Below are positions 17,816 to 36,407 of a stretch of 36,562 nucleotides of DNA, piece by piece. Position 1 is the first letter of the stretch, and the number at the start of each line of letters is the position of its first letter. Origin of the DNA: a virus. A program made the position numbers and the translations under genes. The stretch lies in the IMG/VR virus record IMGVR_UViG_3300021057_000026, positions 1-36,562 of that record. One strand, written 5' to 3'. The notes beneath the pieces are model-generated. The model was not told the DNA's origin and did no database searches. It saw nothing but the letters and a program-made list of their open reading frames with translations.

Positions 17816-18213
17816 TCTCCTTTTGGTACGGAGTTGCTTTTAATAACTTCGTGATAAATAAAAGATGGTAATAGTCCCTTCGCCAACTCTATCTGTTTTT
17901 CATACTTGCTTATTAGATCCACGACCTTTTGACTCATCACTACGCACTTAGCTAATTCTTCATCGGTTAGAAAAACAAATACCTGGTCGGGTTTTACATT
18001 ATGACCTATGCTCGATGCTGTTGTATTTTTTAATCCGTGAAATTCGTAAGGAATAATTTGCCCGTCCTTTATTTCATATGGTTTATAACCTTTGCGTGTT
18101 AAGCGCAGAATGGTACCCTTCCCAATATAACCTGTGTTGGTTATCAAACGCTGTGTTTCTAACACATGATCAGGATCTGATTCCTGTATTACTTTTTTAA
18201 TGATATCCTTCAT
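17812..18213 (-). CDS. CTS-tagged late protein, 133 aa
   Basis: Tag MKDIIKKVIQE|S. The middle (GYIGKGTILRLTRKGYKPYE, KPDQVFVFLTDEELAKCV) looks beta-rich and SH3-like, but no family is recognised. Two control elements lie upstream: late-motif variant ATATTTAC (18218-18225) and a host-like TATATTTG box (18237-18244). Confidence 0.7.
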   Translation of the reverse strand: MKDIIKKVIQESDPDHVLETQRLITNTGYIGKGTILRLTRKGYKPYEIKDGQIIPYEFHGLKNTTASSIGHNVKPDQVFVFLTDEELAKCVVMSQKVVDLISKYEKQIELAKGLLPSFIYHEVIKSNSVPKGD

Positions 18214-18427: not shown

Positions 18428-18741
18428 TAGGTGTTGGTTAATTGATCGACAAAAATAACCATATTTTCGTTGGTTGAACTGACTTCTAACGCCATTAACG
18501 TTTTAAACGATTCGGTGGACGTAGGCTCAAACTTGTATGCGGTTTTTTTCCAAGCCTCGAATATTTCTTCGGCCTCAGCTAAATCAATACCATAAACCTC
18601 GCAGATCATATCTCTAAGTTCGGATAAATTTTTATACCTCTCTTCGTTCTTGACTTTCACCAATAGAGTATTACCGATAAGGATCGGTTTGAATAAACTA
18701 TTCAGATAATGAAAAATTAGGATATGAAATTTGTCTTTCAT
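18427..18741 (-). CDS. CTS-family domain without tag, 104 aa
   Basis: MKDKFHILIFHYLNSLFKPI ... YGIDLAEAEEIFEAWKKTA: both signature helices of the CTS family but no I/L-x-E tag and no late motif; it lies in an early operon (TAATG coupling on both sides). Perhaps an intracellular partner or ancestor of the packaged versions (inference). Confidence 0.65.
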   Translation of the reverse strand: MKDKFHILIFHYLNSLFKPILIGNTLLVKVKNEERYKNLSELRDMICEVYGIDLAEAEEIFEAWKKTAYKFEPTSTESFKTLMALEVSSTNENMVIFVDQLTNT

Positions 18742-18914
18742 TACAAGGGAAACTGATATACATTCCTACTCTGATTTGGTTTGGGTTCAAATAACTGCCA
18801 CAATCCACATAGTAAATCAAGATCTAAATTTACCAGCATGTAATCATGCATCGTATAATCGTCCCAGATTTTACATATTCTGGTTTTATGAAAGGCAATC
18901 CAGAGTGCATCCAT
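18741..18914 (-). CDS. mini-protein, 57 aa
   Basis: MDALWIAFHKTRICKIWDDY...; TAATG junction with 18427-18741 and 2-nt gap to 18917-19111. Function unknown. Confidence 0.65.
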   Translation of the reverse strand: MDALWIAFHKTRICKIWDDYTMHDYMLVNLDLDLLCGLWQLFEPKPNQSRNVYQFPL

Positions 18915-21576: not shown

Positions 21577-21767
21577 TATTTTATTGGATAATATATACTC
21601 CCATCATATCGAGTGATCGGGTTCGCAATATAGATGTGAGATGTGATTACTTTCAGATAGCCCATAAATTTAAGAGGATCGAAATTAGGCTGAGTATCGA
21701 CCAACCACCCGTTCTTATCCATGGTTTTAAAACACCACAACATTTTTTTCTGAAGTAAATCTTCCAT
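21576..21767 (-). CDS. mini-protein, 63 aa
   Basis: MEDLLQKKMLWCFKTMDKNG...; ATG 21767 chosen for the TAATG junction with 21767-21919. M-E-D-L start like array minis. Function unknown. Confidence 0.65.
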   Translation of the reverse strand: MEDLLQKKMLWCFKTMDKNGWLVDTQPNFDPLKFMGYLKVITSHIYIANPITRYDGSIYYPIK

Positions 21768-21919
21768 TAACGTAAAATCCAGCAATGGTTATCAGTGAAT
21801 GCAAAATCCTTGTTTTGAAATACCAAGTTATCTATGTAATCAGTTATTTCCCACAAACCATCTATTGTAAGTTCATATTGAATTGTCAATAGAAAGGTAT
21901 CTATACACACATCACGCAT
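21767..21919 (-). CDS. mini-protein, 50 aa
   Basis: MRDVCIDTFLLTIQYELTID...; ATG 5 nt after TATGGT, first gene of a three-gene early operon ending in the zinc-ribbon gene. Confidence 0.65.
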   Translation of the reverse strand: MRDVCIDTFLLTIQYELTIDGLWEITDYIDNLVFQNKDFAFTDNHCWILR

Positions 21920-21924
21920 GAATA

Positions 21925-21953
21925 ACCATACATTAAAATTGGTTGATAGTCAA
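21925..21953 (-). promoter_or_regulatory. early promoter
   Basis: TTGACT (21948-21953), 17 nt, TATGGT (21925-21930), ATG 5 nt later. Confidence 0.7.
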
Positions 21954-21954
21954 G

Positions 21955-22566
21955 TTAATCTTCGTAGAAAAAAGAAAGATCGATGTTAAAGAATCGTTCT
22001 AAACCTTTGTAGATTTCACGATCATGGAACCCGTATTCTTCTTGAAAATACTGCACCAATAATCCTATGAGAAAATATCTTTGAAGACCTTTGTAATCAT
22101 AAGTGTTATGAGCCTTTGCAGTGTAACAAGAGGTGATAATATCATGATGGAAACAATATTTCGGATTACCAAACACATTGTCTTTATAGCCGATATTACT
22201 TAGAACATCATAAATGAGTCCCACACTTTTTTCTTCGTTCTCATCTATGCGATTAGGAAAAAGCGGCTTGCGAATTTTCTTAGCCTCAAGTTCAAATAAT
22301 TGAAAAAATTCGGATGCCTGGGTAGCGGAAATGTCAAACATTTCTCTAAGCTGTTGTTTGATTTTAAAACTATCCAGGATGATTCTATCAGTATCCTTTT
22401 CTGCTAAGTAGGTTATCTTCTTATTAGGATCAAAATAAACGTCTATGATCGATTCAAGATAGGGTTTAACCAGAGAATACAGTTTATAGTCCTCCTCATT
22501 CCACAAAATAGTTATCCTGTTAGATTTTTTCGCCTCGGTTAAGATCTTCTTGATGATACTTTTCAT
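21955..22566 (-). CDS. CTS-tagged late protein, 203 aa
   Basis: Tag MKSIIKKILTE|A. Contains FDISATQASEFFQLFELEA (recurring helix) after YSLVKPYLESIIDVYF. A second part (115-203) repeats a similar layout, ending KGLERFFNIDLSFFYED. Late motif 22572-22579, 6 nt spacing. Function unknown. Confidence 0.75.
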   Translation of the reverse strand: MKSIIKKILTEAKKSNRITILWNEEDYKLYSLVKPYLESIIDVYFDPNKKITYLAEKDTDRIILDSFKIKQQLREMFDISATQASEFFQLFELEAKKIRKPLFPNRIDENEEKSVGLIYDVLSNIGYKDNVFGNPKYCFHHDIITSCYTAKAHNTYDYKGLQRYFLIGLLVQYFQEEYGFHDREIYKGLERFFNIDLSFFYED

Positions 22567-22601: not shown

Positions 22602-22772
22602 TCATACACCCTCCTGCCAAACGTAGAATTCTTCGTGGATACGCCAAAAACCCATATTAGCGGCGAATTTCATATCCAGATCCAGTGGAGTGGCATCGTG
22701 AGTCCCTATGACCTTCCCAAAGATAATTTTGTTATGTATACTGCGGTAACAGTATTCAGATAATTCACGCAT
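22602..22772 (-). CDS. array mini-protein 45, 56 aa
   Basis: MRELSEYCYRSIHNKIIFGK..., ending MGFWRIHEEFYVWQEGV. The aromatic C-terminus (x-F-W ... F-x-VWQ) is shared with 23113-23277 and others. 7-nt gap after the previous gene. Confidence 0.6.
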   Translation of the reverse strand: MRELSEYCYRSIHNKIIFGKVIGTHDATPLDLDMKFAANMGFWRIHEEFYVWQEGV

Positions 22773-22779
22773 CAAACCT

Positions 22780-22950
22780 TCACTTCTTTTGATAAATCTC
22801 CAGATACATTCTCATTTCCGATGCAACAAGATTTTGTCCACGTATTACGTAGTCGGGATTACCTTTTGTTCCCTCATTTACAATGATCAGATTTGTGTGC
22901 ATTGAAACCTCTAATGCTCTGATCAGATCTTCTATAGTAATTTCTTTCAT
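22780..22950 (-). CDS. array mini-protein 44, 56 aa
   Basis: MKEITIEDLIRALEVSMHTN...; ATGA junction with 22947-23111. Helical N-terminus. Function unknown. Confidence 0.6.
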   Translation of the reverse strand: MKEITIEDLIRALEVSMHTNLIIVNEGTKGNPDYVIRGQNLVASEMRMYLEIYQKK

Positions 22951-23111
22951 AACGATATCCAGAAAGTATCATAATACATAAATCCCATATTCCACAAGGG
23001 TGTGTTTTCCAACTGACACACAGTATCCCACATTCCCTTTGATGTGGATGTAGATGTGATCCTAAAATCGTACATCAGCAAATCATATGTGGAACTGCAT
23101 AGATCGAACAT
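22947..23111 (-). CDS. array mini-protein 43, 54 aa
   Basis: MFDLCSSTYDLLMYDFRITS..., ending WNMGFMYYDTFWISL, the aromatic C-terminal pattern. Starts 1 nt after the previous stop. Confidence 0.6.
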   Translation of the reverse strand: MFDLCSSTYDLLMYDFRITSTSTSKGMWDTVCQLENTPLWNMGFMYYDTFWISL

Positions 23112-23112
23112 G

Positions 23113-23277
23113 TTATTTTATTTGCCACACAAAAAGATCCGTAGCCACGAAGTTAAATTCCCACTTCCAAAGGTGATAATCAACATCACAAAGCATGTGA
23201 ATTGTGCTGGAGGTTCCTATTTTCGCAAGAACACCTCTGTTACAAAAGTCTGCTGTATCTGGTAATAAATCGATCAT
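23113..23277 (-). CDS. array mini-protein 42, 54 aa
   Basis: MIDLLPDTADFCNRGVLAKI..., ending WKWEFNFVATDLFVWQIK. Aromatic C-terminus paralogous to 22602-22772. Confidence 0.6.
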   Translation of the reverse strand: MIDLLPDTADFCNRGVLAKIGTSSTIHMLCDVDYHLWKWEFNFVATDLFVWQIK

Positions 23278-23283
23278 TTCCTG

Positions 23284-23412
23284 TTACTGCGGATCTATTA
23301 TGTCAAGATTAATATACAGCTTAATCAATAAAGCACCTTCAGTCAGATTCCAGATAAACAGAGTGGACTCATTACTATTAATTGTACTGATCAATTTTTG
23401 CATAGCTCTCAT
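23284..23412 (-). CDS. array mini-protein 41, 42 aa
   Basis: MRAMQKLISTINSNESTLFI...; ATGA junction with 23409-23561. Function unknown. Confidence 0.5.
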   Translation of the reverse strand: MRAMQKLISTINSNESTLFIWNLTEGALLIKLYINLDIIDPQ

Positions 23413-23561
23413 ATCATCATAAAAGTATCCTCAGCACTTTCCAAGGTAGTGTAAATAGATATCAATAAATTATCATACGTACAGTATCCTTCCCAGATAA
23501 CACGAAACTCATTAAGCAACGGTTCCATATCATGTAAACCTAATACGAGCGTTCCATACAT
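23409..23561 (-). CDS. array mini-protein 40, 50 aa
   Basis: MYGTLVLGLHDMEPLLNEFR...; ATG 6 nt after the -10 TACCGT of its own early promoter: leaderless. Confidence 0.6.
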   Translation of the reverse strand: MYGTLVLGLHDMEPLLNEFRVIWEGYCTYDNLLISIYTTLESAEDTFMMI

Positions 23562-23564
23562 TAT

Positions 23565-23765
23565 TTAACGGTACAAATTAATTTTTAAATAGTCAATACT
23601 TGTTCTTGTTTGTGGGGTCCAGGCAAAGGTTTCCATGGTTCTATGAAATCCCAGAACAAACCGAATTGGGAAATCTAAAGTGATGCAGTAATAAAATTTA
23701 TCTATCTTAGAATAAGTAAAATAGTTTTTCTGCGTATCCATACAATCTTTTATTATTTCCAGCAT
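23565..23765 (-). CDS. array mini-protein 39, 66 aa
   Basis: MLEIIKDCMDTQKNYFTYSK...; contains LDFPIRFVLGFHRTMETF, the P-I-R-x-V-x-G-F block shared with 26892-27077 and 29517-29657. ATG 23765 is 5 nt after TATCGT. Confidence 0.65.
   Translation of the reverse strand: MLEIIKDCMDTQKNYFTYSKIDKFYYCITLDFPIRFVLGFHRTMETFAWTPQTRTSIDYLKINLYR
23568..23596 (-). promoter_or_regulatory. early promoter
   Basis: TTGACT (23591-23596), 17 nt, TACCGT (23568-23573), ATG 6 nt later; inside the 3' end of the preceding gene. Confidence 0.65.
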
Positions 23766-23770
23766 AACCA

Positions 23771-23799
23771 ACGATACAGAAAAGTTTCTGCTTAATCAA
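23771..23799 (-). promoter_or_regulatory. early promoter
   Basis: TTGATT (23794-23799), 17 nt, TATCGT (23771-23776), ATG 5 nt later. Confidence 0.65.
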
Positions 23800-23802
23800 G
23801 AT

Positions 23803-23967
23803 CTACAGACGATACAGACCACCCCTATAAGCCTTGAAGTTAAGGGAGCGGAAAAAAAATCTGTTTACAGAAAACAAAGTCAGGGGTAATGGAAACGTGC
23901 TCTCGTAATGTGAAACAAAATTCAGCGGCTTTCCGATGCAAATAAGATTACAGCAAAGATCATTCAT
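23803..23967 (-). CDS. array mini-protein 38, 54 aa
   Basis: MNDLCCNLICIGKPLNFVSH...; ATGA junction with 23964-24092; Phe-rich second half. Function unknown. Confidence 0.55.
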   Translation of the reverse strand: MNDLCCNLICIGKPLNFVSHYESTFPLPLTLFSVNRFFFRSLNFKAYRGGLYRL

Positions 23968-24092
23968 GATATCTCCAATAATTTCTGTATAGGATCGGTT
24001 ATCAAAACAATCCGCTGCCCAGCCTTCACATAAAATAAAAACCGTTGTTTGTTCCCCGTATTGTCCGATATGTAGTTAGTTAGATCCTTCAT
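23964..24092 (-). CDS. array mini-protein 37, 42 aa
   Basis: MKDLTNYISDNTGNKQRFLF...; ATGA junctions on both sides. Function unknown. Confidence 0.55.
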   Translation of the reverse strand: MKDLTNYISDNTGNKQRFLFYVKAGQRIVLITDPIQKLLEIS

Positions 24093-24250
24093 CTATATAA
24101 TTTAGCTTTCCATCCCTCAAACGTACACCAATAATACCCCAGGTCAGGAAACAACGTGTTCTGAATGGTGGTAGTCATGATGCCTTTAATTTTCATATGA
24201 TGGATCTGATTAGCCAGAGCATTGAAACAATTATGTGTTAGTTTATTCAT
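24089..24250 (-). CDS. array mini-protein 36, 53 aa
   Basis: MNKLTHNCFNALANQIHHMK...; starts 8 nt inside 24243-24446; its ATG abuts copy A of the 35-bp repeat. Ends LGYYWCTFEGWKAKLYR. Confidence 0.6.
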   Translation of the reverse strand: MNKLTHNCFNALANQIHHMKIKGIMTTTIQNTLFPDLGYYWCTFEGWKAKLYR

Positions 24251-24446
24251 GATTTAAGGGGGCTGGGGTTTGAGAACTTCGGGTTACAAAACGGATCTTC
24301 CAGCAATAATCGGAGAAGGAAAATATAAACCCCATCTCCTGCATGACCACCTCTTCAATGAAATCAATATCTGTATAGTCAATAAAGAAATTATACATTT
24401 CGTATTCCCCACCAAACATACGTGTATGCCAGCACAGTTCTAACAT
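24243..24446 (-). CDS. array mini-protein 35, 67 aa
   Basis: MLELCWHTRMFGGEYEMYNF...; MGFIFSFSDYCWKIRF matches the aromatic pattern of other minis, but the last 12 residues (RSSQTPAPLNHE) are encoded by the 35-bp repeat, so the C-terminus looks extended by repeat insertion. Confidence 0.6.
   Translation of the reverse strand: MLELCWHTRMFGGEYEMYNFFIDYTDIDFIEEVVMQEMGFIFSFSDYCWKIRFVTRSSQTPAPLNHE
24248..24282. repeat. dispersed 35-bp repeat, copy A
   Basis: CAT-GATTTAAGGGGGCTGGGG-TTTGAGAACTTCGG; near-identical copies at 25081 and 26006, each starting at the ATG of a mini-gene. Confidence 0.65.
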
Positions 24447-24601
24447 GTACTCACCCAGGAATAAATTATATTGTTACTAAAATAGTCCATACTATATGCT
24501 AACAACCAACTTGCATCTATAACACTATAAAACCCAGGAATGCGATCAAAAATAAAAATATGTGCTATTTCTAAATAATCATTATTTAATATTTCCAGCA
24601 T
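24440..24601 (-). CDS. array mini-protein 34, 53 aa
   Basis: MLEILNNDYLEIAHIFIFDR...; ATG 6 nt after the -10 TAGCAT. Ends SMDYFSNNIIYSWVSTC, similar to 24620-24781. Confidence 0.65.
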   Translation of the reverse strand: MLEILNNDYLEIAHIFIFDRIPGFYSVIDASWLLAYSMDYFSNNIIYSWVSTC

Positions 24602-24607
24602 TACACA

Positions 24608-24636
24608 ATGCTACAAAACTTATCTGGTATTGTCAA
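24608..24636 (-). promoter_or_regulatory. early promoter
   Basis: TTGACA (24631-24636), 17 nt, TAGCAT (24608-24613), ATG 6 nt later. Confidence 0.6.
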
Positions 24637-24781
24637 CCCACGAATAATTGTCCCTACCACCGAACATAAACCGCCATTGTCTAAACACCGAATTTTCGAT
24701 ATCGTTAATGGCGTACCACCGATTAGTGTCGTAGTTGTTTCTCTTAACAGTAATCAGGATTGTAGTTATAAGAGTATTCAT
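24620..24781 (-). CDS. array mini-protein 33, 53 aa
   Basis: MNTLITTILITVKRNNYDTN..., ending RQWRFMFGGRDNYSWVDNTR. ATGA junction with 24778-24936. Confidence 0.6.
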   Translation of the reverse strand: MNTLITTILITVKRNNYDTNRWYAINDIENSVFRQWRFMFGGRDNYSWVDNTR

Positions 24782-24936
24782 TCCCAAACGTAGCGAAAAG
24801 GTATGTAGGTGAAACGCATCTCATAAAAAACCTTGGTATCGATACGCCTTACACTACCAACCATGGGTACAATATCAAGGTAAATTCCAAACGAAACTGT
24901 CATTATGGAACGGATCGGTTGTAGGTGTTGGTACAT
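24778..24936 (-). CDS. array mini-protein 32, 52 aa
   Basis: MYQHLQPIRSIMTVSFGIYL..., ending MRFTYIPFRYVWE. Start 24936 chosen to abut the previous stop (3-nt gap); the internal ATG at residue 12 is an alternative. Confidence 0.55.
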   Translation of the reverse strand: MYQHLQPIRSIMTVSFGIYLDIVPMVGSVRRIDTKVFYEMRFTYIPFRYVWE

Positions 24937-24939
24937 GGA

Positions 24940-25083
24940 TTAACGAAAATAAAATGTAGTGCCCTTAAACAATTTTTGTATAAGTGAATTAGAAACCATA
25001 ATAATCGGAAGATCGTAATTAATGACAGTATAATTATGCCACAGGTTATAAACAAGTCCCTGATCATTCATTAGATGTTTCAT
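24940..25083 (-). CDS. array mini-protein 31, 47 aa
   Basis: MKHLMNDQGLVYNLWHNYTV...; start codon lies at copy B of the 35-bp repeat. Function unknown. Confidence 0.55.
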   Translation of the reverse strand: MKHLMNDQGLVYNLWHNYTVINYDLPIIMVSNSLIQKLFKGTTFYFR

Positions 25084-25114
25084 TTTAAAAGGGGCTGGGG
25101 TTTGAAAACTTCGG
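25081..25114. repeat. dispersed 35-bp repeat, copy B
   Basis: CATTTTAAAAGGGGCTGGGG-TTTGAAAACTTCGG; between the stop at 25129 and the ATG at 25083. Confidence 0.65.
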
Positions 25115-25128
25115 TTATATATTCGATT

Positions 25129-25311
25129 TTAAAATTCAACATCATACAGAAAATACATTCCAGATCCATCCGCTCCCAGGTTGCGGTAAAGATCCATAGC
25201 TCCATGAGCGGATTCCATCAGGGTGCTGGTACCAGACGGTCCAAAGTAATTCCATCCACTAAAGGTTAGTTTATAGAACACCTCTGAATGTATGTGGAGT
25301 AGATCTTTCAT
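25129..25311 (-). CDS. array mini-protein 30, 60 aa
   Basis: MKDLLHIHSEVFYKLTFSGW NYFGPSGTST... The GW-x-x-FGP block is shared with 26557-26730 and 26892-27077. TAATG junction upstream. Confidence 0.65.
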   Translation of the reverse strand: MKDLLHIHSEVFYKLTFSGWNYFGPSGTSTLMESAHGAMDLYRNLGADGSGMYFLYDVEF

Positions 25312-25442
25312 TAGTCTTTTATTACGGCCTCCTGATCCCGCCCGACAAATTCACTGTACAGAGCTATCACAACCAGATCGTGATCGCAGACATTTTCCCA
25401 GATCTTAATCAGATGTCGATTATGGGTGTATAGCTCTTTCAT
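25311..25442 (-). CDS. array mini-protein 29, 43 aa
   Basis: MKELYTHNRHLIKIWENVCD HDLVVIALYS... Clear paralog of 26163-26309 (IW-x4-C-x-HDL-x2-I-x-IY-x3-VG-x-D-x-EA). ATGA and TAATG junctions; longer in-frame start rejected. Confidence 0.7.
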   Translation of the reverse strand: MKELYTHNRHLIKIWENVCDHDLVVIALYSEFVGRDQEAVIKD

Positions 25443-25687
25443 AAAACGGTTATATGTTTCTTCTTGCAATGATGATGCAGCGCAGGATACTCCCAAACGC
25501 TACCCTTAATATTCTCAACAAAGCTCGGATCCGAAAAACAATAATCATCTATTCTGACAGAATAAAAACAGTGTGATTCATTTACTCCAGCTACAGTACC
25601 AGTAAAGCCTCCTGCTTTAAAACTTGCATCTGCAACATAGACCCTGGTACCGATCCATTTTTCGTTGTATGTTGTTATTTTCATCAT
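25439..25687 (-). CDS. array protein 28, 82 aa
   Basis: MMKITTYNEKWIGTRVYVAD...; beta-rich with Gly (FKAGGFTGTVAGV), perhaps an SH3/KOW-like barrel, unlike its helical neighbours. Overlaps the previous stop. Confidence 0.6.
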   Translation of the reverse strand: MMKITTYNEKWIGTRVYVADASFKAGGFTGTVAGVNESHCFYSVRIDDYCFSDPSFVENIKGSVWEYPALHHHCKKKHITVL

Positions 25688-25881
25688 TTAAGGCGTTGTG
25701 GTATAAGATAAAAAGCATGATCAGGATTGCAGTGGGGATAAGTGTAACCCATATCTATTAACAGTATCTCATTCGTGGCAACATGCCCAGCAGCAGAATT
25801 ACTGATGCTGAAGGCAACAAACGTGTCCCGTTCAATTAGCAGAGCATGAAATCTCCAGAGGGCATTTATACATTCATTCAT
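25684..25881 (-). CDS. array mini-protein 27, 65 aa
   Basis: MNECINALWRFHALLIERDT...; starts 1 nt after the previous stop. Function unknown. Confidence 0.6.
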   Translation of the reverse strand: MNECINALWRFHALLIERDTFVAFSISNSAAGHVATNEILLIDMGYTYPHCNPDHAFYLIPQRLK

Positions 25882-25882
25882 T

Positions 25883-26008
25883 TTACTCAAAATTAAAATG
25901 TCTGTGTAGTTCGTGATATGCGTGTATTATAGATTCATCACATTTAAAGTGCGCTCTCCAAATTTCGAGAATATCAGAACTACGTGGATCAAAATATAAC
26001 TGGTTCAT
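25883..26008 (-). CDS. array mini-protein 26, 41 aa
   Basis: MNQLYFDPRSSDILEIWRAH..., ending YHELHRHFNFE, which matches the ELHRHINME end of 26740-26850. ATG abuts repeat copy C. Confidence 0.65.
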   Translation of the reverse strand: MNQLYFDPRSSDILEIWRAHFKCDESIIHAYHELHRHFNFE

Positions 26009-26040
26009 GATTTTAGGGGGCTGGGGGTTAGGAACTTCGG
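26006..26040. repeat. dispersed 35-bp repeat, copy C
   Basis: CATGATTTTAGGGGGCTGGG-GGTTAGGAACTTCGG; about 925 bp from copy B. Confidence 0.65.
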
Positions 26041-26055
26041 ACCGCAGAACGTTTT

Positions 26056-26151
26056 TTAGATACCAGGAACCTGAATCCTGACAAATCGAAAACGCTGATA
26101 CGGACTGATAAAAATCGTGTTATAAAGTACATTACATTTCAGGGTAAGCAT
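26056..26151 (-). CDS. array mini-protein 25, 31 aa (doubtful)
   Basis: MLTLKCNVLYNTIFISPYQR... Very short; kept because it fills an otherwise empty slot and has an M-x-x-L start. It could be a truncated paralog cut by repeat copy C. Confidence 0.35.
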   Translation of the reverse strand: MLTLKCNVLYNTIFISPYQRFRFVRIQVPGI

Positions 26152-26162
26152 ATGAATTTATT

Positions 26163-26309
26163 TTAATGTGTGCTCGGCAGATATGTCCATATTGCCTCGA
26201 TGTCAACACCGACAACTTGTTTGTAAATAGTGATCAGTTTCAGATCGTGATGGCAATACACTTGCCATATCATTTCAAACGCTCCGATGCTATAGTAAAA
26301 ATCTCCCAT
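26163..26309 (-). CDS. array mini-protein 24, 48 aa
   Basis: MGDFYYSIGAFEMIWQVYCH HDLKLITIYK...; paralog of 25311-25442. Overlaps 26290-26421 by 20 nt. Confidence 0.65.
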   Translation of the reverse strand: MGDFYYSIGAFEMIWQVYCHHDLKLITIYKQVVGVDIEAIWTYLPSTH

Positions 26310-26421
26310 CAATCGTTATTAGGGGTATATAAAAGTGCGCTCTGGTGTTTCCGTACACAACTTCGGTCCATATACAATTAAATACCCTATCACGAAAAAC
26401 CAGCTTTCTCAGATCATACAT
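26290..26421 (-). CDS. array mini-protein 23, 43 aa
   Basis: MYDLRKLVFRDRVFNCIWTE...; ATG 5 nt after TATGGT: leaderless. Confidence 0.6.
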   Translation of the reverse strand: MYDLRKLVFRDRVFNCIWTEVVYGNTRAHFYIPLITIDGRFLL

Positions 26422-26426
26422 AAACA

Positions 26427-26455
26427 ACCATACAAATTAAGCTCGGCAAAATCAA
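26427..26455 (-). promoter_or_regulatory. early promoter
   Basis: TTGATT (26450-26455), 17 nt, TATGGT (26427-26432), ATG 5 nt later. Confidence 0.7.
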
Positions 26456-26556
26456 GTCCCCAGGGCGTATATTAGATGATGTTTACCAAGAGGATCCGCA
26501 CACCATCATCAGATGGATCTGGGCGTTCACCCAGCGTTACGAGAGAGAAAACAGAA

Positions 26557-26730
26557 TTAAAAACTAACGTTAACATAAGTTTCGGTACCACCCCACTCAC
26601 TCATCAAAAAATCACAGAGAATACCCTCGATATTGCTCACGTAGTTTGCGTTCGGACCAAAGAACCCCCAACCATCAGAGTCCCCGAAACGGAACATCTC
26701 ATCGATAATGAATTCAACGGTGGTTTCCAT
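26557..26730 (-). CDS. array mini-protein 22, 57 aa
   Basis: METTVEFIIDEMFRFGDSDG, then WGFFGPNANYVSNI: nearly the same block as 26892-27077 (WSFFGPNANYVTDM). Function unknown. Confidence 0.65.
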   Translation of the reverse strand: METTVEFIIDEMFRFGDSDGWGFFGPNANYVSNIEGILCDFLMSEWGGTETYVNVSF

Positions 26731-26739
26731 TCAGTTTTC

Positions 26740-26850
26740 TCATTCCATATTAATATGTCTATGAAGTTCGCTAATGCGCTTATTACGCATCTTAATATAG
26801 ATATCAAGCAAAAATGCATTGCACAAAACTACAACACGTAAATTTTTCAT
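26740..26850 (-). CDS. array mini-protein 21, 36 aa
   Basis: MKNLRVVVLCNAFLLDIYIK..., ending SELHRHINME (see 25883-26008). ATG 6 nt after TATGGT; a longer in-frame start lies upstream of the promoter -10 and is rejected. Confidence 0.6.
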   Translation of the reverse strand: MKNLRVVVLCNAFLLDIYIKMRNKRISELHRHINME

Positions 26851-26856
26851 GGAGTA

Positions 26857-26885
26857 ACCATACAGATAAATCCGAATAAAATCAA
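26857..26885 (-). promoter_or_regulatory. early promoter
   Basis: TTGATT (26880-26885), 17 nt, TATGGT (26857-26862), ATG 6 nt later; just downstream of the stop of 26892-27077. Confidence 0.7.
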
Positions 26886-26891
26886 GACCCC

Positions 26892-27077
26892 TTAAATCGC
26901 CTCCAGAACGCCAGCATGAAAGCTGGTACAATATACAGCAGGGAATCCGATAACCATTCGGATCGGGAGATGCATATCCGTTACATAATTTGCGTTCGGT
27001 CCAAAGAAGGACCAGCCCTGTGCATACATGGGCATATCGTAAAACTCGTCGACGGAGATATCAATTAACTGTTTCAT
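26892..27077 (-). CDS. array mini-protein 20, 61 aa
   Basis: MKQLIDISVDEFYDMPMYAQ, then GWSFFGPNANYVTDMHLPIR and MVIGF. It carries both the FGPN block (26557, 25129 paralogs) and the PIR-x-V-x-GF block (23565, 29517 paralogs), linking the two subfamilies. Confidence 0.7.
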   Translation of the reverse strand: MKQLIDISVDEFYDMPMYAQGWSFFGPNANYVTDMHLPIRMVIGFPAVYCTSFHAGVLEAI

Positions 27078-27080
27078 TTA

Positions 27081-27245
27081 TCAGATTTTTAAAATTGCAA
27101 TAAAAAGACTTTCAACCGTATTCCCAAGCCCCATAGCCCTCTCTAACCCATAGTATGAATTTATGGTTGTATTAAAACGTGGCACATCGCTAAAGACAAA
27201 TTTATTTGCCAGAAAACGATAATCACAAAGCATTAATTCGAGCAT
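27081..27245 (-). CDS. array mini-protein 19, 54 aa
   Basis: MLELMLCDYRFLANKFVFSD...; 2-3 nt gaps to both neighbours. Function unknown. Confidence 0.6.
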   Translation of the reverse strand: MLELMLCDYRFLANKFVFSDVPRFNTTINSYYGLERAMGLGNTVESLFIAILKI

Positions 27246-27247
27246 GG

Positions 27248-27466
27248 TTAGTTTAGTTCTATGGGAAACTTCATTAGGCCGCTATAACAATCCAGGGAGA
27301 TCCACCTGATATTACCAGGCTTAATATCCCATCCCACATAGGTGCCGAATAATTCTAAGGCACCCATTAAAGCGGGATGAAGTGAATAGGTTCTTTTCAT
27401 TCGGATCCGAAAGCAATCACCATTCAGGCTTAATCCCCCGATATCATCCTTTAAAAGTTCCTTCAT
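27248..27466 (-). CDS. array protein 18, 72 aa
   Basis: MKELLKDDIGGLSLNGDCFR IRMKRTYSLH..., with ALELFGTYVGWDI, resembling LFGKYSM/LFGDVRI of 28183-28431 and 28431-28670. Confidence 0.65.
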   Translation of the reverse strand: MKELLKDDIGGLSLNGDCFRIRMKRTYSLHPALMGALELFGTYVGWDIKPGNIRWISLDCYSGLMKFPIELN

Positions 27467-27578
27467 ATAAAAAATGTTTGTATAGATGAGTGTCTATGGA
27501 TAACAGCGTATTATAAATCCGAATCGGCATCATCCACCAATTAATTAAGCTCTTGGTAGATCCGTATAGTTCTTTCAT
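27444..27578 (-). CDS. array mini-protein 17, 44 aa
   Basis: MKELYGSTKSLINWWMMPIR...; the 3' end overlaps the next gene by 23 nt. Function unknown. Confidence 0.55.
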   Translation of the reverse strand: MKELYGSTKSLINWWMMPIRIYNTLLSIDTHLYKHFLYEGTFKG

Positions 27579-27716
27579 TTAGGAGATATTAAGTTCTGAT
27601 CTCTTTAAAGCGTGATAAAAGGGGTGAACAAGGAATATGATCGAGAACCTGATGCCGCCAGATATCCTGTAGTTTCTATTCAGGATCCAGTAAATATTAT
27701 CTACTAATTGGTCCAT
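27579..27716 (-). CDS. array mini-protein 16, 45 aa
   Basis: MDQLVDNIYWILNRNYRISG...; TAA directly followed by the next ATG. Basic. Confidence 0.55.
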   Translation of the reverse strand: MDQLVDNIYWILNRNYRISGGIRFSIIFLVHPFYHALKRSELNIS

Positions 27717-27717
27717 C

Positions 27718-27831
27718 TTAGTTGGTCAGATACGTGGGTAAGCTGCAAGCAAACACCATGGTTTTATATATGATTTCAGACTGTGAATACATTTGATAAA
27801 TTTCAGAATCGGCTATGTAAAAGTCGAGCAT
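27718..27831 (-). CDS. array mini-protein 15, 37 aa
   Basis: MLDFYIADSEIYQMYSQSEI...; 1-nt gap to the next gene. Function unknown. Confidence 0.5.
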   Translation of the reverse strand: MLDFYIADSEIYQMYSQSEIIYKTMVFACSLPTYLTN

Positions 27832-27842
27832 GATATTGGGGG

Positions 27843-27977
27843 TTAATAAAGTTCTAACCGTTTGTACAGATCAGAGAATATTAGCTCTTTCTGATACACG
27901 CATCCGCTGATAGGGTAATGCACTGGATTGCGAAAAATCCAATCGACATACTGAATGATTAATATTACTTGGTTCAT
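27843..27977 (-). CDS. array mini-protein 14, 44 aa
   Basis: MNQVILIIQYVDWIFRNPVH...; preceded by CCCCTAAAATCA, a degenerate half of the 35-bp repeat. Function unknown. Confidence 0.55.
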   Translation of the reverse strand: MNQVILIIQYVDWIFRNPVHYPISGCVYQKELIFSDLYKRLELY

Positions 27978-28002
27978 GAATGGGAGTGATTTTAGGGGAG
28001 GG

Positions 28003-28170
28003 TTATAATTTGCGCTTGAATTTATACCTGAACCACTCCTCAATCTGTATTGCAGATGCATCACATATTAATCCGTACTGATTTAATAGATTATAAGCAG
28101 ACTTAATCTTTTTGTGAAGTCGATCTTTTTCTGCTTTAGGAGCATTCCTGGTTGTCTTAAGAGTTCGCAT
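28003..28170 (-). CDS. array protein 13, basic helical, 55 aa
   Basis: MRTLKTTRNAPKAEKDRLHK..., Lys/Arg-rich and helical, ending EEWFRYKFKRKL; unlike the acidic neighbours and possibly nucleic-acid binding. Confidence 0.6.
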   Translation of the reverse strand: MRTLKTTRNAPKAEKDRLHKKIKSAYNLLNQYGLICDASAIQIEEWFRYKFKRKL

Positions 28171-28182
28171 GAGAGGGTGATT

Positions 28183-28431
28183 TTAGAATATGCTTATTTG
28201 TTTATCATCTGCACCGCCATACTGATCCATGGATCTGATCACAAGCCCAGGAGGATGCTTTACTTTAAATCCGAGATCGACATCAAAGGCTGGAGCCATT
28301 GAGTATTTGCCGAACAGCTTAACGGTGTCGTTCATTGCCCCATACGGTTGTAACTGCTCTCCAACGGACACACGATAGAGATTATCGTTAATGCGTAAAC
28401 TATGAAGGTATATAAATAACAATTCTTCCAT
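28183..28431 (-). CDS. array protein 12, 82 aa
   Basis: MEELLFIYLHSLRINDNLYR VSVGE... LFGKYSM ... RSMDQYGGADD. Paralog of 28431-28670. TAATG junction. Confidence 0.7.
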   Translation of the reverse strand: MEELLFIYLHSLRINDNLYRVSVGEQLQPYGAMNDTVKLFGKYSMAPAFDVDLGFKVKHPPGLVIRSMDQYGGADDKQISIF

Positions 28432-28670
28432 TATTGAAAAATTTCTATTGTAGGACTACCAGAACTGTATTGGTCCATGTGCATAAATACAATACCATCT
28501 ACTGGTTCACCATCCCACCAATCAAAGTAGATTGGGTAAATACGAACATCACCAAACAATGTCAACACATTATCTAATGTATCGTAACTTATAATGGACT
28601 TTGGAATGCTAATACGATAATACCTATCATGCAGCATTAAATTATATAGCCTTACGAAAAGTTCTTCCAT
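28431..28670 (-). CDS. array protein 11, 79 aa
   Basis: MEELFVRLYNLMLHDRYYRI SIPKS... LFGDVRI ... MHMDQYSSGSP. Shares start, YRI/YRV, LFG and MDQY blocks with 28183-28431: a tandem duplicate. TAATG junctions. Confidence 0.7.
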   Translation of the reverse strand: MEELFVRLYNLMLHDRYYRISIPKSIISYDTLDNVLTLFGDVRIYPIYFDWWDGEPVDGIVFMHMDQYSSGSPTIEIFQ

Positions 28671-28942
28671 TACTTTTTTAGTTCCTTGCGATCAAAAATA
28701 TTTAGATCCAAAAATTTTACATCCCACCAGTGCGCCTCACCCAACGAGAAGAAACGCAGTGTCTGCGGCTTACGTAACCTACGCTTTAATGTGTAATGTT
28801 GGATCACCAGGTAATTCCCCATAGATTGCATTACTTCTTTAAATGCAGTATATAAACCATCTTCCTCATCAAAAGGTCTAACAACGGTGAACAGGCACCC
28901 GTTAAAACTTACTTTCCGTAGCGATTGTAAAAATTCAAACAT
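28670..28942 (-). CDS. array protein 10, 90 aa
   Basis: MFEFLQSLRKVSFNGCLFTV..., with TAFKEVMQSMGNYLV at the place of the LFG block: more distant member of the same group. TAATG junctions. Confidence 0.7.
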   Translation of the reverse strand: MFEFLQSLRKVSFNGCLFTVVRPFDEEDGLYTAFKEVMQSMGNYLVIQHYTLKRRLRKPQTLRFFSLGEAHWWDVKFLDLNIFDRKELKK

Positions 28943-29061
28943 TATCTGTATCTGATACTAATTTCTTCAGGAACAAGTGTTGTGTCTTTCAGAAGAATCC
29001 CCCTAAAATCACCCACCCAGTTCCAGCGCATTTCCATTATGTCAATCATTAAATCGTGCAT
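28942..29061 (-). CDS. array mini-protein 9, 39 aa
   Basis: MHDLMIDIMEMRWNWVGDFR..., ending LVPEEISIRYR; tandem paralog of 29061-29180 with identical length and TAATG junctions. Confidence 0.65.
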   Translation of the reverse strand: MHDLMIDIMEMRWNWVGDFRGILLKDTTLVPEEISIRYR

Positions 29062-29180
29062 TATTTGTATTGAATAAAATGTATTTCTGGCGGTACTACT
29101 TTATCGGGAAGTATTACTATCAGAAACCAATCTATAGTTCTAATACGCATATCTATTATTTTATTCTGTAGGCCAAGCAT
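29061..29180 (-). CDS. array mini-protein 8, 39 aa
   Basis: MLGLQNKIIDMRIRTIDWFL..., ending VVPPEIHFIQYK; same length and layout as 28942-29061. Confidence 0.65.
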   Translation of the reverse strand: MLGLQNKIIDMRIRTIDWFLIVILPDKVVPPEIHFIQYK

Positions 29181-29377
29181 TATTTCACCTCCTCAATCAA
29201 TTCCACCACATATGTCGTCCCGCTATTGTAATAGAAGAACATTGTCCAGTTATTGAGTGCGTAGCCCATGTTAAAGCCTTCGGTACCGATTGTTTTCACA
29301 CAATGCGGTATGAATTCTTTTCGCATCAGTTCTATGAACTCTTTCCTGGTCGCAACCATTCGCTTTTCTTCTTTCAT
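29180..29377 (-). CDS. array protein 7, 65 aa
   Basis: MKEEKRMVATRKEFIELMRK..., then FNMGYALNNWTMFFYYNSGT. ATG 29377 is 2 nt after the previous stop; an upstream in-frame start is inside that gene. Confidence 0.65.
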   Translation of the reverse strand: MKEEKRMVATRKEFIELMRKEFIPHCVKTIGTEGFNMGYALNNWTMFFYYNSGTTYVVELIEEVK

Positions 29378-29379
29378 TG

Positions 29380-29523
29380 TTATGCTTGCTCCCTCCAATA
29401 GATAAAACCATCCAATTTTAATTGTAAGAAACTTCGATACAACACCACTTCAAGCCGAGCCATTGTTTTATGACAATCAGTGGCTCCCATTACAGTTGAT
29501 GCAGTCCATAACATTTCTAACAT
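29380..29523 (-). CDS. array mini-protein 6, 47 aa
   Basis: MLEMLWTASTVMGATDCHKT...; ATG overlaps the TAG of 29517-29657 by 7 nt. Function unknown. Confidence 0.6.
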   Translation of the reverse strand: MLEMLWTASTVMGATDCHKTMARLEVVLYRSFLQLKLDGFIYWREQA

Positions 29524-29657
29524 AATAGCTCCGCCACAAATAAACCATAAAACACACGCATCGGAATATGAGCACCCCTTAGACCACTCCTTTCTAAAAA
29601 AGATAATGATATGTCGTGCCTTGGAGCAATTGATATGTTATACATGGTTTCCCTCAT
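29517..29657 (-). CDS. array mini-protein 5, 46 aa
   Basis: MRETMYNISIAPRHDISLSF..., with GAHIPMRVFYGLF, the PIR-x-V-x-GF block. ATG 29657 follows the stop at 29669 closely; a longer start overlaps the previous gene. Confidence 0.6.
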   Translation of the reverse strand: MRETMYNISIAPRHDISLSFLERSGLRGAHIPMRVFYGLFVAELLC

Positions 29658-29668
29658 CTCTATACTTT

Positions 29669-29791
29669 TTAAAATCGAGTTTGTATTCCTACACCATGTA
29701 AAAACCGACATATTGGTACACCAATAACTAAACTTCCGACCGCAATGTGATCTGTATTCACCTTGCCCATATCAGCGATTAATTGCAGCAT
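29669..29791 (-). CDS. array mini-protein 4, 40 aa
   Basis: MLQLIADMGKVNTDHIAVGS...; ATG 5 nt after a perfect TATGAT: leaderless. Confidence 0.6.
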   Translation of the reverse strand: MLQLIADMGKVNTDHIAVGSLVIGVPICRFLHGVGIQTRF

Positions 29792-29796
29792 TACCA

Positions 29797-29825
29797 ATCA
29801 TACCAACGAGTTTCGAGATAGTCAA
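29797..29825 (-). promoter_or_regulatory. early promoter
   Basis: TTGACT (29820-29825), 17 nt, TATGAT (29797-29802), ATG 5 nt later; the TGA of 29822-29947 is in the -35. Confidence 0.75.
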
Positions 29826-29947
29826 GACCCCTTAAATTTATCTATCCATAGATTTATGTATAATTGTTGAGCCGTTCTGTCATAATTAAATCCTTCCCAT
29901 AACTCATATGCTCCAGATAGGCTAACCATGTTACGTAATTCTCTCAT
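29822..29947 (-). CDS. array mini-protein 3, 41 aa
   Basis: MRELRNMVSLSGAYELWEGF...; ATGA junction with 29944-30057; its stop is embedded in the next promoter. Confidence 0.6.
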   Translation of the reverse strand: MRELRNMVSLSGAYELWEGFNYDRTAQQLYINLWIDKFKGS

Positions 29948-30057
29948 CGTGCGTAATGGAATACAATATTGGTAATGGCTGGCGTGAGGATCGGATCATA
30001 TTCGTGTGTGATCAGATACCAGCGCATTGTTAGAGTAAGGACCATTAATTCTTGCAT
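29944..30057 (-). CDS. array mini-protein 2, 37 aa
   Basis: MQELMVLTLTMRWYLITHEY...; begins 12 nt after the previous stop. Function unknown. Confidence 0.55.
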   Translation of the reverse strand: MQELMVLTLTMRWYLITHEYDPILTPAITNIVFHYAR

Positions 30058-30069
30058 TATAATCTGAGT

Positions 30070-30171
30070 TTACCAGAGGTTCACTATCATAATATAGGTT
30101 TTTAGCCTGGGCAATTGCAAACGGCATAATGGTGGAAATACACTAAGTATATCATAATTCAACTCATCCAT
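30070..30171 (-). CDS. array mini-protein 1, 33 aa
   Basis: MDELNYDILSVFPPLCRLQL...; ATG 7 nt after TATGGT. First gene of the mini-gene array. Confidence 0.5.
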   Translation of the reverse strand: MDELNYDILSVFPPLCRLQLPRLKTYIMIVNLW

Positions 30172-30178
30172 AGGTTGA

Positions 30179-30207
30179 ACCATACTGATAAAAAATTGAT
30201 AAGTCAA
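30179..30207 (-). promoter_or_regulatory. early promoter at the head of the array
   Basis: TTGACT (30202-30207), 17 nt, TATGGT (30179-30184), ATG 7 nt later. Confidence 0.7.
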
Positions 30208-30258: not shown

Positions 30259-30609
30259 TTAATAACCTTCTTCATCATCGTATTCTTCATACGACTCATA
30301 TTCGTAAGGCTGAGTATTTGCCCAGGCCGTAGCATGACTCAAAGCACTCATCAACCCGATGGCGAAGTCCTGTCTGATCAAGGTAGCAAGACCAGAAACA
30401 TTTACGTACTTCGGCTCCTCCAAAGTTCTATCAACAATGTTCCCCCTGAATGTTACATTATCCTTTTCATATACATGAACACTGCCATCATCATGGTTGT
30501 GTACTCCCACAAAACGACTGTTTAGATAATCAAATATCAGTTTCTGCATTTTCTCTGATATCTGCTTTTTGTTTTCCTGAAGTAATATTTGTTTGATTAA
30601 CTCTCTCAT
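30259..30609 (-). CDS. CTS-tagged late protein, 116 aa
   Basis: Tag MRELIKQILLQE|N. KMQKLIFDYLNSRFVGVHNH is the family's first helix and RQDFAIGLMSALSHATAWA the second. Acidic tail (EYESYEEYDDEEGY). ATGA junction with the upstream gene; no late motif of its own, so transcribed from 31441-31448. Confidence 0.75.
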   Translation of the reverse strand: MRELIKQILLQENKKQISEKMQKLIFDYLNSRFVGVHNHDDGSVHVYEKDNVTFRGNIVDRTLEEPKYVNVSGLATLIRQDFAIGLMSALSHATAWANTQPYEYESYEEYDDEEGY

Positions 30610-30980
30610 TTTAATAATTTTATTCGATAAATGATGTCAGGATTTTGATCAACATAAGTTTCTAACCATTTAATATAGATATCATGACTCACTTCTTCAG
30701 GAATACTGAATGTATCCTCTATAAATCTATCCACGTATAAGTTTACCATCTGAGCAGACTCCAACCAATTATTTCGATTGAAATAGACCACTTTTCTTAC
30801 ATCATCAACTTTTACATCATTTCTGTTGAAATGAAATTTAAAATTCTTATTTTTTGGATGAGTGGCTATCACGATATTATCTGACAAATATTTCATTATA
30901 AACTGATACATTTTATTCGACTCATTCTCCACTACCTTAGTTATGGTTTCGGTTAATATTTTTTTGATAATATCTTTCAT
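30606..30980 (-). CDS. CTS-tagged late protein, 124 aa
   Basis: Tag MKDIIKKILTE|T. KMYQFIMKYLSDNIVIA (helix 1), strands (NFKFHFNRNDVKVDDVRKVV) and FSIPEEVSHDIYIKWLETY (helix 2): a clean example of the shared domain. Second gene of a three-gene late operon. Confidence 0.75.
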   Translation of the reverse strand: MKDIIKKILTETITKVVENESNKMYQFIMKYLSDNIVIATHPKNKNFKFHFNRNDVKVDDVRKVVYFNRNNWLESAQMVNLYVDRFIEDTFSIPEEVSHDIYIKWLETYVDQNPDIIYRIKLLK

Positions 30981-30986
30981 GTATTT

Positions 30987-31436
30987 TTAGTCTTTAGGAT
31001 TTCCAGTCCCCTGGTAAATGAGGGTAATGTGTGATAATGGAATTGGTTGAAAGGTTACAACGTGCTTATTCTTTTTATCCCAATCAAAATGGCGATCCGT
31101 AAACCATTCGTTCGGTAATCCTTGCGTATCGATTCTGTAGATATCATCATCGTATGGTGAGTCAAACCAATCCTTTTTGTTTTCACTGTTGGTTGCAAAA
31201 ATTGCTGGAGGAAGATGCTTCTTGGAAATAGCACCATCTTCTTCATACCACGACATCGCATGAGATTCGTAACTATCACTAACAGTAGGTTTCAACCCCT
31301 GCTTTTGGATCTTCTTTCGGTAGTACGGATTGCTGGCATGATAAACATATCTCCCAACCTTTACTGGCTTTCCCCCTGGGCTATACTCAGCCTTTTGTTT
31401 AGCCTCCTGTAATATCTTACGAATAAGTTGTTTCAT
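30987..31436 (-). CDS. CTS-tagged ADP-ribosyltransferase-like protein
   Basis: 149 aa from ATG 31436 (5 nt from the late motif). Tag MKQLIRKILQE|A. The body resembles small ADP-ribosyltransferase/KptA-like folds: GRYVYHASNPYYRKKIQKQG at 28-47 (H-x-S with I-x-x-x-GL-x-P), AIFATNS at 79-85, DDDIYRIDTQGL at 96-107, and a final VTFQPIPLSHITLIY. T4 packages an ADP-ribosyltransferase (Alt) with a comparable tag, which modifies host RNA polymerase on entry. Fold assignment is by pattern only. Confidence 0.6.
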   Translation of the reverse strand: MKQLIRKILQEAKQKAEYSPGGKPVKVGRYVYHASNPYYRKKIQKQGLKPTVSDSYESHAMSWYEEDGAISKKHLPPAIFATNSENKKDWFDSPYDDDIYRIDTQGLPNEWFTDRHFDWDKKNKHVVTFQPIPLSHITLIYQGTGNPKD

Positions 31437-31440
31437 GTTA

Positions 31441-31448
31441 ATAAATAT
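31441..31448 (-). promoter_or_regulatory. late motif ATATTTAT
   Basis: TGATATTTATTAAC-ATG; its first T-G-A includes the stop of 31448-32197. Probably drives the three genes 31436-30259. Confidence 0.7.
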
Positions 31449-32197
31449 CAAATCAATTCACTTAACTCTATCAGGTCAAACACATCATCTTTTTGTAAAA
31501 TGGTTTTGAACTCATTACGGATTGTGTGTGAGATATCCACCCAATCAACTTGAACACCATAGCGTTTATTAGCAAACTTACCGCCCCCTAAATTCTCATA
31601 ATTTTCCTTAAGGAACAAAGTGATGTTCGTTAAAAGTTTAGCATCTCGATTGGTAAACAACCATTGTCTAAGAATATGCTGCATCTGAATGGCAACATCG
31701 GTTGTATAAATTAAATCATAGGCCATCGCTGTTTGCTGTAATACCACCAATCCAGTGATTGAATAATTAGAATTTTCTTTACTGAATATGTGAATTCCTT
31801 TAACCTCGTAATTAGATCTGATATAATCCAGTATTTGACTACTCAGCATCTCCACAACAGATTCAGTTTTTGATTCCTTAATCATACCTTGGTTTTTAGC
31901 TTGTTCATTAGCCCATGATACCACTGGCATTAGAACATCCTTGAAATCTATACCGAATTGTTTTTCCACGTCATATGCAATATCAATCAGGCTTATACTG
32001 TGTATTCGAGAGGCATCACTTAACCTGTCAAATAACCACATTCCAGGACTGTCGCTACTGCATGTAGAATATATCTTATAGTTGTTATTCAGATATGGTG
32101 TCAGTAATGAAAGTAATTTATTGACTGAGTTGGTATCAGAATTTGATGGATCTGTACTGACCACCTCAGTTAATATTTTTCTAATCAGCTTTTTCAT
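31448..32197 (-). CDS. CTS-tagged late protein with internal domain duplication, 249 aa
   Basis: Tag MKKLIRKILTE|V. Copy 1: VNKLLSLLTPYLNNNYKI ... FGIDFKDVLMPVVSWANEQ; copy 2: VEMLSSQILDYIRSNYEVKG ... TDVAIQMQHILRQWLFTNRD. So two shared domains in tandem, then a third block (KRYGVQVDWVDISHTIRNEF). Late motif 32202-32209, 5 nt spacing. Confidence 0.75.
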   Translation of the reverse strand: MKKLIRKILTEVVSTDPSNSDTNSVNKLLSLLTPYLNNNYKIYSTCSSDSPGMWLFDRLSDASRIHSISLIDIAYDVEKQFGIDFKDVLMPVVSWANEQAKNQGMIKESKTESVVEMLSSQILDYIRSNYEVKGIHIFSKENSNYSITGLVVLQQTAMAYDLIYTTDVAIQMQHILRQWLFTNRDAKLLTNITLFLKENYENLGGGKFANKRYGVQVDWVDISHTIRNEFKTILQKDDVFDLIELSELI

Positions 32198-33102: not shown

Positions 33103-33816
33103 ATGAAAAAATTCGTTGCACTATACAGGGTATCTACTCAAAAGCAGGGGAACTCTGGCCTTGGTCTTGAGGCTCAACAAGACTGTGTTAGATCTTTCGT
33201 TCAATCCGCTGGCGGTGTCCTGGTCCGTGAGATCACCGAGGTTGAGTCGGGCGGTAATAAGGATCGCATCCAGTTCGGGTCAACTGTCAACCTGGACAAA
33301 CTCCTGGGCAAGCGTAAGCAACTGCGTGAGGCTATCGAGTTGGCGAAGATCGAGGGGGCAACCATCGTGGTGAAGGAATCATCTCGTCTTACTCGTTTCT
33401 CCCTGCTAATGGATTACCTACTCGCCAATGGAATCGACTTCGTGTGTGCAGCATCCCCGAACGATACTCCGCTAATCATAAAGTTCAAGACTGCGTTAGC
33501 AGAGGAAGAGTTGGTTAAGATCTCCGAGCGTACAACTGCTGCGCTCCAGATGAAGAAGGCCAAGGGCGTGAAACTTGGAACTTGCAATCTAACTGATCAG
33601 GGTAGACAAAAGGCTGGCGCAACTGTGCGTGAGAAGGCACTGAATGATGAGCACAACCGCAGGGCAATCTCCATGATTACAACCCTAAAAGGGATCGGAA
33701 GATCCTACCGAGCAATAGCCGAGCAGTTGAACTCAGGGGGTTTCAAAACATCCAGAGGCGGATCCTTCACTGGTTGGGCTGTCCAGGTTCTATACGAACG
33801 CCACTTGACTTTATGA
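33103..33816 (+). CDS. serine recombinase (resolvase/invertase family)
   Basis: 237 aa. Catalytic Ser11 and Arg9 in YRVSTQKQGNSGLGLEAQ; further active-site region KESSRLTRF (91-99); E-helix region FKTALAEEELVKISERTTAA; C-terminal helix-turn-helix GRSYRAIAEQLNSGG with RGGSFTGWAVQVLYERH. Size fits small resolvase/invertase-type enzymes rather than large serine integrases. The gene is clearly more GC-rich in codon choice than its neighbours, suggesting recent acquisition. Could mediate inversion, resolution or integration near the flanking palindromes. Confidence 0.9.
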   Translation: MKKFVALYRVSTQKQGNSGLGLEAQQDCVRSFVQSAGGVLVREITEVESGGNKDRIQFGSTVNLDKLLGKRKQLREAIELAKIEGATIVVKESSRLTRFSLLMDYLLANGIDFVCAASPNDTPLIIKFKTALAEEELVKISERTTAALQMKKAKGVKLGTCNLTDQGRQKAGATVREKALNDEHNRRAISMITTLKGIGRSYRAIAEQLNSGGFKTSRGGSFTGWAVQVLYERHLTL

Positions 33817-36026: not shown

Positions 36027-36037
36027 ATAATTTGCCA

Positions 36038-36178: not shown

Positions 36179-36262
36179 TGTGAAGTGATAATGTATCGTT
36201 AATGTTTTCGGGTGGAATTCAAATAAACATTACTACAACGCATTTAACTCCAAGTTAGACTA

Positions 36263-36403: not shown

Positions 36404-36407
36404 ACCC

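Follow-up and report, generated by a model that had tools for sequence, protein, structure and literature searches.

The window analysed in this work is the whole 36,562-nucleotide (nt) IMG/VR virus record IMGVR_UViG_3300021057_000026, a phage fragment whose minus strand carries, between positions 22602 and 30171, a nearly gapless array of very small genes, here called minis. The array is composed of 46 open reading frames (ORFs) of 31-90 amino acids (aa), with a median of about 52 aa, named from m01 at the high-coordinate end to m46 at the low-coordinate end, and these ORFs cover 94% of the some 7.6 kb concerned. Using ORFs of at least 31 codons, the best tiling of the minus strand reached 7050 of 7606 nt, as against 2851 ± 443 nt (about 38% cover; maximum 4085 nt) in 200 second-order Markov shuffles and 2241 nt on the plus strand of the same region. 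In addition, when the frames were scored by a codon preference learned from 30 larger ORFs of the window, the called one came out best of the six in 29 of the 46 minis, about 8 being expected. The array is a real coding array, since chance ORFs or a non-coding repeat are ruled out by the tiling together with the start motif described below. An earlier note on this DNA had counted about 45 proteins of 31-90 aa on one strand, a count which stands apart from a few weak calls: m25 (26056-26151) and m26 (26028-26132) overlap by 77 nt and both have low codon-preference scores, at least one of them being probably spurious, and m05 (29517-29711), which overlaps m04 (29669-29791) by 43 nt, has an uncertain start. 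Mismatches among paralogues amounted to 54%, 40% and 54% at codon positions 1, 2 and 3, evidence of little weight, as the pairs had been selected by protein similarity.

Junctions between minis are tight, as had been stated beforehand: seven are of the ATGA type (-4), seven of the TAATG type (-1), and most of the remaining ones lie within ±12 nt. The array opens with m01 (30070-30171; MDELNYD..., 33 aa), whose start was reset to the ATG at 30171, followed by m02 (29944-30057), m03 (29822-29947) and, beyond m05, m06 (29380-29523) and m07 (29180-29377). Further inside are m13 (28003-28170), m14 (27843-27977), m15 (27718-27831), m16 (27579-27716), m23 (26290-26421), m28 (25684-25881), m29 (25439-25684), m38 (23964-24092), m39 (23803-23967), m42 (23284-23412) and m45 (22780-22950). 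The sole long gap, of 135 nt (26422-26556), separates m22 from m23 and contains a possible short hairpin, CTGGG-TGAACG-CCCAG on the minus strand, which has no Rfam match, the Rfam search of the window having returned none. A 48-nt repeat is also present three times (24246-24293, 25078-25125 and 26004-26051), and its C-rich stretch (ACCCCAGCCCC or similar, minus strand) ends right before the starts of m37, m32 and m27; a scan of contigs for this C-rich repeat found none.

Many of the minis begin in the same way. The motif M-x-[EDQ]-[LIFM] opens 28 of the 46, whereas among other ATGs it was found at 1 of 96 lying out of frame on the same strand (p = 2e-16), at 4 of 79 that are in frame but internal, and at 3 of 137 on the plus strand. 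The strict form, M-x-[EDKQ]-L, with which nearly all the minis had been said to start, is found in 23 of the 46, so that its frequency had been overstated. Moreover, the codons used for Leu4 vary (TTA, CTA, CTT, CTG and TTG), an indication that selection acts on the protein and not on the DNA. Shine-Dalgarno-like sequences precede only 2 of the 46 minis, which is no signal; this, together with the ATGA and TAATG junctions, agrees with translational coupling in a host not using such sites, for which Flavobacterium is a known case (PMC6847099).

Promoter-like sites of one early type recur in the window, where the motif TTGA-N18-20-TAT[CG][AG]TT occurs 16 times (13 on the minus and 3 on the plus strand, with about 0.45 expected per strand) and is followed by an ATG 2-7 nt further on in 14 cases (about 0.07 expected per strand). 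Five sites of the form TTGA[CT]T-N17-TAT[GC][GA]T, all on the minus strand and with an ATG 5-7 nt past the -10 box, are placed to serve the array: TTGACT-N17-TATGGT at 30179-30207 (ATG 7 nt past), TTGACT-N17-TATGAT at 29797-29825 (5 nt), TTGATT-N17-TATGGT at 26857-26885 (6 nt) and again at 26427-26455 (5 nt), and TTGATT-N17-TATCGT at 23771-23799 (5 nt). The recurrence of early promoters, as the earlier note had it, is borne out by these five; regarding their frequent embedding in the end of the preceding gene, the stop codon of m03 does lie inside the TTGA of the -35 box at 29825, and the -35 boxes at 26885 and 23799 start within a few nt after the stop of the preceding gene. Such short distances from the -10 box to the ATG would place the transcript starts on or beside the start codon, giving near-leaderless mRNAs, which would be unusual given that 87% of the predicted transcripts of F. 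johnsoniae have leaders longer than 10 nt (PMC6847099). The exact pattern is found 11 times in this 36-kb record and does not occur in any of ten other large phage records; two contigs retrieved by a promoter-pattern scan carry no minis and were judged to be chance matches.

As regards paralogy, 23 of the 46 minis have detectable paralogues and fall into five families of 10, 5, 3, 3 and 2 array genes, with 15 pairs reaching a Smith-Waterman score of at least 40, as against 1.5 in shuffles. The core family comprises m19 (27081-27245), m33 (24778-24936), m34 (24620-24781), m35 (24440-24601), m36 (24243-24446), m37 (24089-24250), m40 (23565-23765), m43 (23113-23277), m44 (22947-23111) and m46 (22602-22772), as well as a minus-strand ORF outside the array (21767-21919) with its own early-type promoter (21925-21953), and its pattern consists of M-x-[ED]-L, a strand, an [MW]-x-[FY] that is mostly conserved, and an almost invariant Trp at the end. 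In a leave-one-out profile test, no more than 2 of 500 shuffles equalled or exceeded each of the ten members, a result which is partly circular as the set had first been picked by eye; m34, outside the core profile, scored above all 4260 decoys and is an independent member. Family W is made up of m17 (27444-27578), m24 (26163-26312), m30 (25311-25442), m32 (24940-25083, weak) and m41 (23409-23561), plus a minus-strand ORF outside the array (18741-18914), while family L contains m11 (28431-28670), m12 (28183-28431) and m18 (27248-27466), to which the 90-aa m10 (28670-28942) is weakly similar. Family G, with the signature GWxFFGP (GWxFFGPNANY in m20), groups m20 (26892-27077), m22 (26557-26730) and m31 (25129-25311); m08 (29061-29180) and m09 (28942-29061) are a paralogous pair, and m21 (26740-26850) and m27 (25883-26008) have a common C-terminal ELHRHxN. 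The description of the 45 or so minis as paralogous applies to the 23 placed in families, one family of all being unsupported: when all the minis were searched as one profile, a check which the earlier note had put forward, left-out members were not convincingly recognised, since 14 of the 46 beat 95% of shuffles, and only 7 of the 46 once the first six residues were removed. Paralogues lie close together along the array, their mean distance being 7.8 genes versus 15.8 in random orders (p = 0.002), as local duplication predicts.

The structural prediction which had also been proposed gave a suggestive result for one representative. Built by AlphaFold2 from the core alignment, m46 shows a helix at residues 2-13, a bridge residue at 17, a second helix at 30-39 and strands at 42-46 and 51-54 (a-b-a-b-b), in a model of low confidence, with a predicted local distance difference test score (pLDDT) of 62 and a predicted template modelling score (pTM) of 0.36; for family L the prediction was unusable (pLDDT 41). 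Searches of the minis in Pfam, PHROGs and PADLOC yielded only isolated weak matches, in agreement with the earlier opinion that the families could not be named. No transmembrane-like stretch was detected in any mini by hydrophobicity, and net charges span from -9 to +9. Outside the record, a relative was found for m07 alone, with 49% identity over 53 residues in the 642-kb phage LR756502.1 (E = 4e-5). The 313-aa protein encoded at 12809-13750 has relatives in contigs of phages, the longest being 482 kb, and since the best relatives of these two proteins are in phages of 300-640 kb, the source is probably an uncultured tailed phage of jumbo size.

The reading favoured here, with a probability of about 55%, is that the array is an early module for host takeover or anti-defence, built of coupled early operons and diversified by local duplication. 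Each operon would have a sigma70-like promoter, TTGA[CT]T-N17-TAT[GC][GA]T, with a transcript beginning on the first ATG or no more than a few nt from it, and the translation of its later minis would be coupled from stop to start across the ATGA, TAATG and short-gap junctions, independently of Shine-Dalgarno sites, the host making no use of these signals. Some 45 soluble proteins would be produced, each about 50 residues long; no fewer than half of them would derive from about five ancestral mini-genes through local duplication and fast divergence, and the core family would adopt a fold with an N-terminal helix opening with M-x-[ED]-L, a strand, a helix and a C-terminal beta-hairpin with the conserved Trp. 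Acting in the first minutes of infection, these proteins would block host factors by binding to them, duplication continuing to supply variants as hosts change. The assignment to takeover or anti-defence, already advanced in the earlier note, holds as the best reading by analogy with the phage SPO1 and with archaeal viruses, and is further suggested by an Acb1-like protein elsewhere in the window, no mini being tied to a target. The gene of that protein (6458-7018, minus strand) matches the Pfam families 2_5_RNA_ligase2 (7e-8) and Acb1 (2.1e-6), both past the curated cut-offs, and starts with a head-targeting-like N-terminus, MKLQGIIRRVLEE; from its sequence, the product is possibly an enzyme against the cyclic oligonucleotide-based antiphage signalling system (CBASS) delivered in the virion. 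In a recent review, the small uncharacterised ORFs of jumbo phages were also considered to plausibly hide many anti-defence proteins (PMC13282480).

By analogy, the described system nearest to the array in its organisation is the host takeover module of the Bacillus phage SPO1, in which 26 genes occupy a 12.4-kb terminal region (PMC6873191). Both are tight clusters of mostly small genes, those of SPO1 being early genes with several internal promoters (PMC6873191); the array has its 46 ORFs on one strand and is served by five promoter-like sites, from whose type its early timing would follow. SPO1, in contrast, has fewer genes; their ribosome binding sites are of the kind seen where expression is high, and host effects have been shown for several of them. 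The array also differs in the size of its genes (about 50 aa), the lack of Shine-Dalgarno sites, the common start motif, the families of local duplicates and the apparently leaderless promoters. In archaeal viruses, early promoters mark anti-defence genes, two of which have been validated (PMC11065993), and the likeness lies in genes placed directly behind a conserved and, for the array, putatively strong early regulatory sequence; nevertheless, those viruses belong to another domain of life and use another promoter, and no gene has been validated here. Were the favoured reading true, one phage would hold about 45 uncharacterised and quickly evolving small proteins ready to be the first to act on the host, a compact reservoir from which new inhibitors of bacterial processes or defences could be drawn, and the local duplication of tiny genes would become visible as an engine of counter-defence.

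Several points weigh against this reading. Codon preference is weaker in the minis than in the larger genes, and a common origin of all 46, tested by the single profile, was not supported. To the partial circularity of the core-family test has to be added that, once the first five residues were removed, two of the ten members (m33 and m37) were no longer distinct. The m46 model is of the low confidence already given and found no significant match with Foldseek, and no known anti-defence or takeover protein was matched among the minis in Pfam, PHROGs or PADLOC. Furthermore, no relatives of the array genes tried were found by megablast against phages or in single-protein and alignment scans of viral contigs and genome contigs, collections from which near relatives may be missing, and the core family, like the exact promoter, was absent from the ten large phage records searched; as no relative with the array was found, the case for early timing and for translation is a statistical one drawn from the sequence.

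Other explanations have to be considered in the light of the larger genes surrounding the array. About 18 of them (between 1164 and 32197; a count made partly by eye) encode proteins whose N-terminus is a brief amphipathic segment that ends in [IL]-x-E, of the type MKxLI[RK]xILxE (for instance MKDIIKKILTE and MKQLIRKILQE; genes 17812-18213, 21955-22566 and 30259-32197), and most have ATATTTAT a few nt upstream of the start. This N-terminus resembles the capsid-targeting sequence of T4, which is cleaved after L/I-x-E (PMC9026906), and their products are probably head-targeted, ejected proteins under late-type promoters, judging from sequence. The minis could likewise be head-targeted and ejected with the DNA, the amphipathic M-x-[ED]-L N-terminus serving as an uncleaved capsid-targeting sequence, which would make them miniature counterparts of the T4 internal proteins: their first five residues resemble the MKDII, MRELI and MKQLI of the neighbours, the array is flanked by head-targeting-like genes, and targeting in T4 depends mainly on residues 4 and 7, a processing-blocked variant still being targeted (PMC9026906). 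This is improbable, given that the TATTTAT motif, which precedes most of those larger genes, is found upstream of none of the 46 minis, the full head-targeting pattern in none of the 46, and [LI]xE near the N-terminus in 7 of the 46, as against 5.9 ± 2.3 by chance. The absence of TATTTAT and the chance level of [LI]xE set the minis apart as a separate class from the larger [IL]xE genes; the T4 internal proteins and Alt, in which a short N-terminal motif is common to otherwise unrelated proteins, are matched by the late-motif larger genes of the window, whereas the minis have neither the cleavage site nor the late-type motif. A different role for the M-x-[ED]-L N-terminus, with little likelihood, would be that of a functional tag on differing early minis, such as a docking or localisation signal read by one phage component, in which case the array would be a library of swappable payloads on one shared handle, renewed by duplication.

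It has also been considered that the minis could be a lineage-specific expansion of small regulators or nucleic-acid binders of the phage's own transcription programme. Bacillus phage G offers a parallel, as one large phage which has multiplied a small protein family, its approximately 35 zinc-ribbon copies being read as possible transcription factors (PMC7824862); the array differs in having several families instead of one and neither a zinc ribbon nor any other known domain. With no Pfam DNA-binding domain in any mini, and net charges from -9 to +9 that do not resemble those of one DNA-binding family, this expansion of regulators is doubtful. Somewhat less so, though still unlikely, is an array that is partly neutral, in which the promoters would carry along ORFs that are young or in decay and only a minority would be functional; this would account for the weak codon preference, the almost complete lack of outside relatives, the half or so of the minis that have no detectable paralogues and the two doubtful overlapping calls. 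Nevertheless, the start motif (p = 2e-16) and the near-complete tiling would be unexpected if there were no selection.

Elsewhere in the window, the head-targeting-like gene at 30987-31436 (minus) has a YHAS...GLKP...IFAT pattern that recalls ADP-ribosyltransferases by eye only, no sequence match being found among solved structures, and the protein encoded at 34977-35627 had no relative found. A serine recombinase gene (33103-33816, plus strand), located where the G+C content of the window is highest, encodes a product about 35% similar to recombinases of Cellulophaga and Microcystis phages and is preceded by TATATTTG, unlike the other promoters. In LR756502.1, the phage that holds the relative of m07, 23 of 68 ORFs between 616093 and 642428 (reverse complement) end in a RDxKLNxLGI-like peptide, 0 being expected in shuffled proteins, with the pattern written after seeing examples; these ORFs mostly differ in size and sequence. 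Finally, a second run of minis lies on the opposite strand (35735-36509, plus), with early-type promoters at 35701 and 36468, the latter followed by the start of a further mini (MNDLFYS..., plus) which is cut by the end of the contig.

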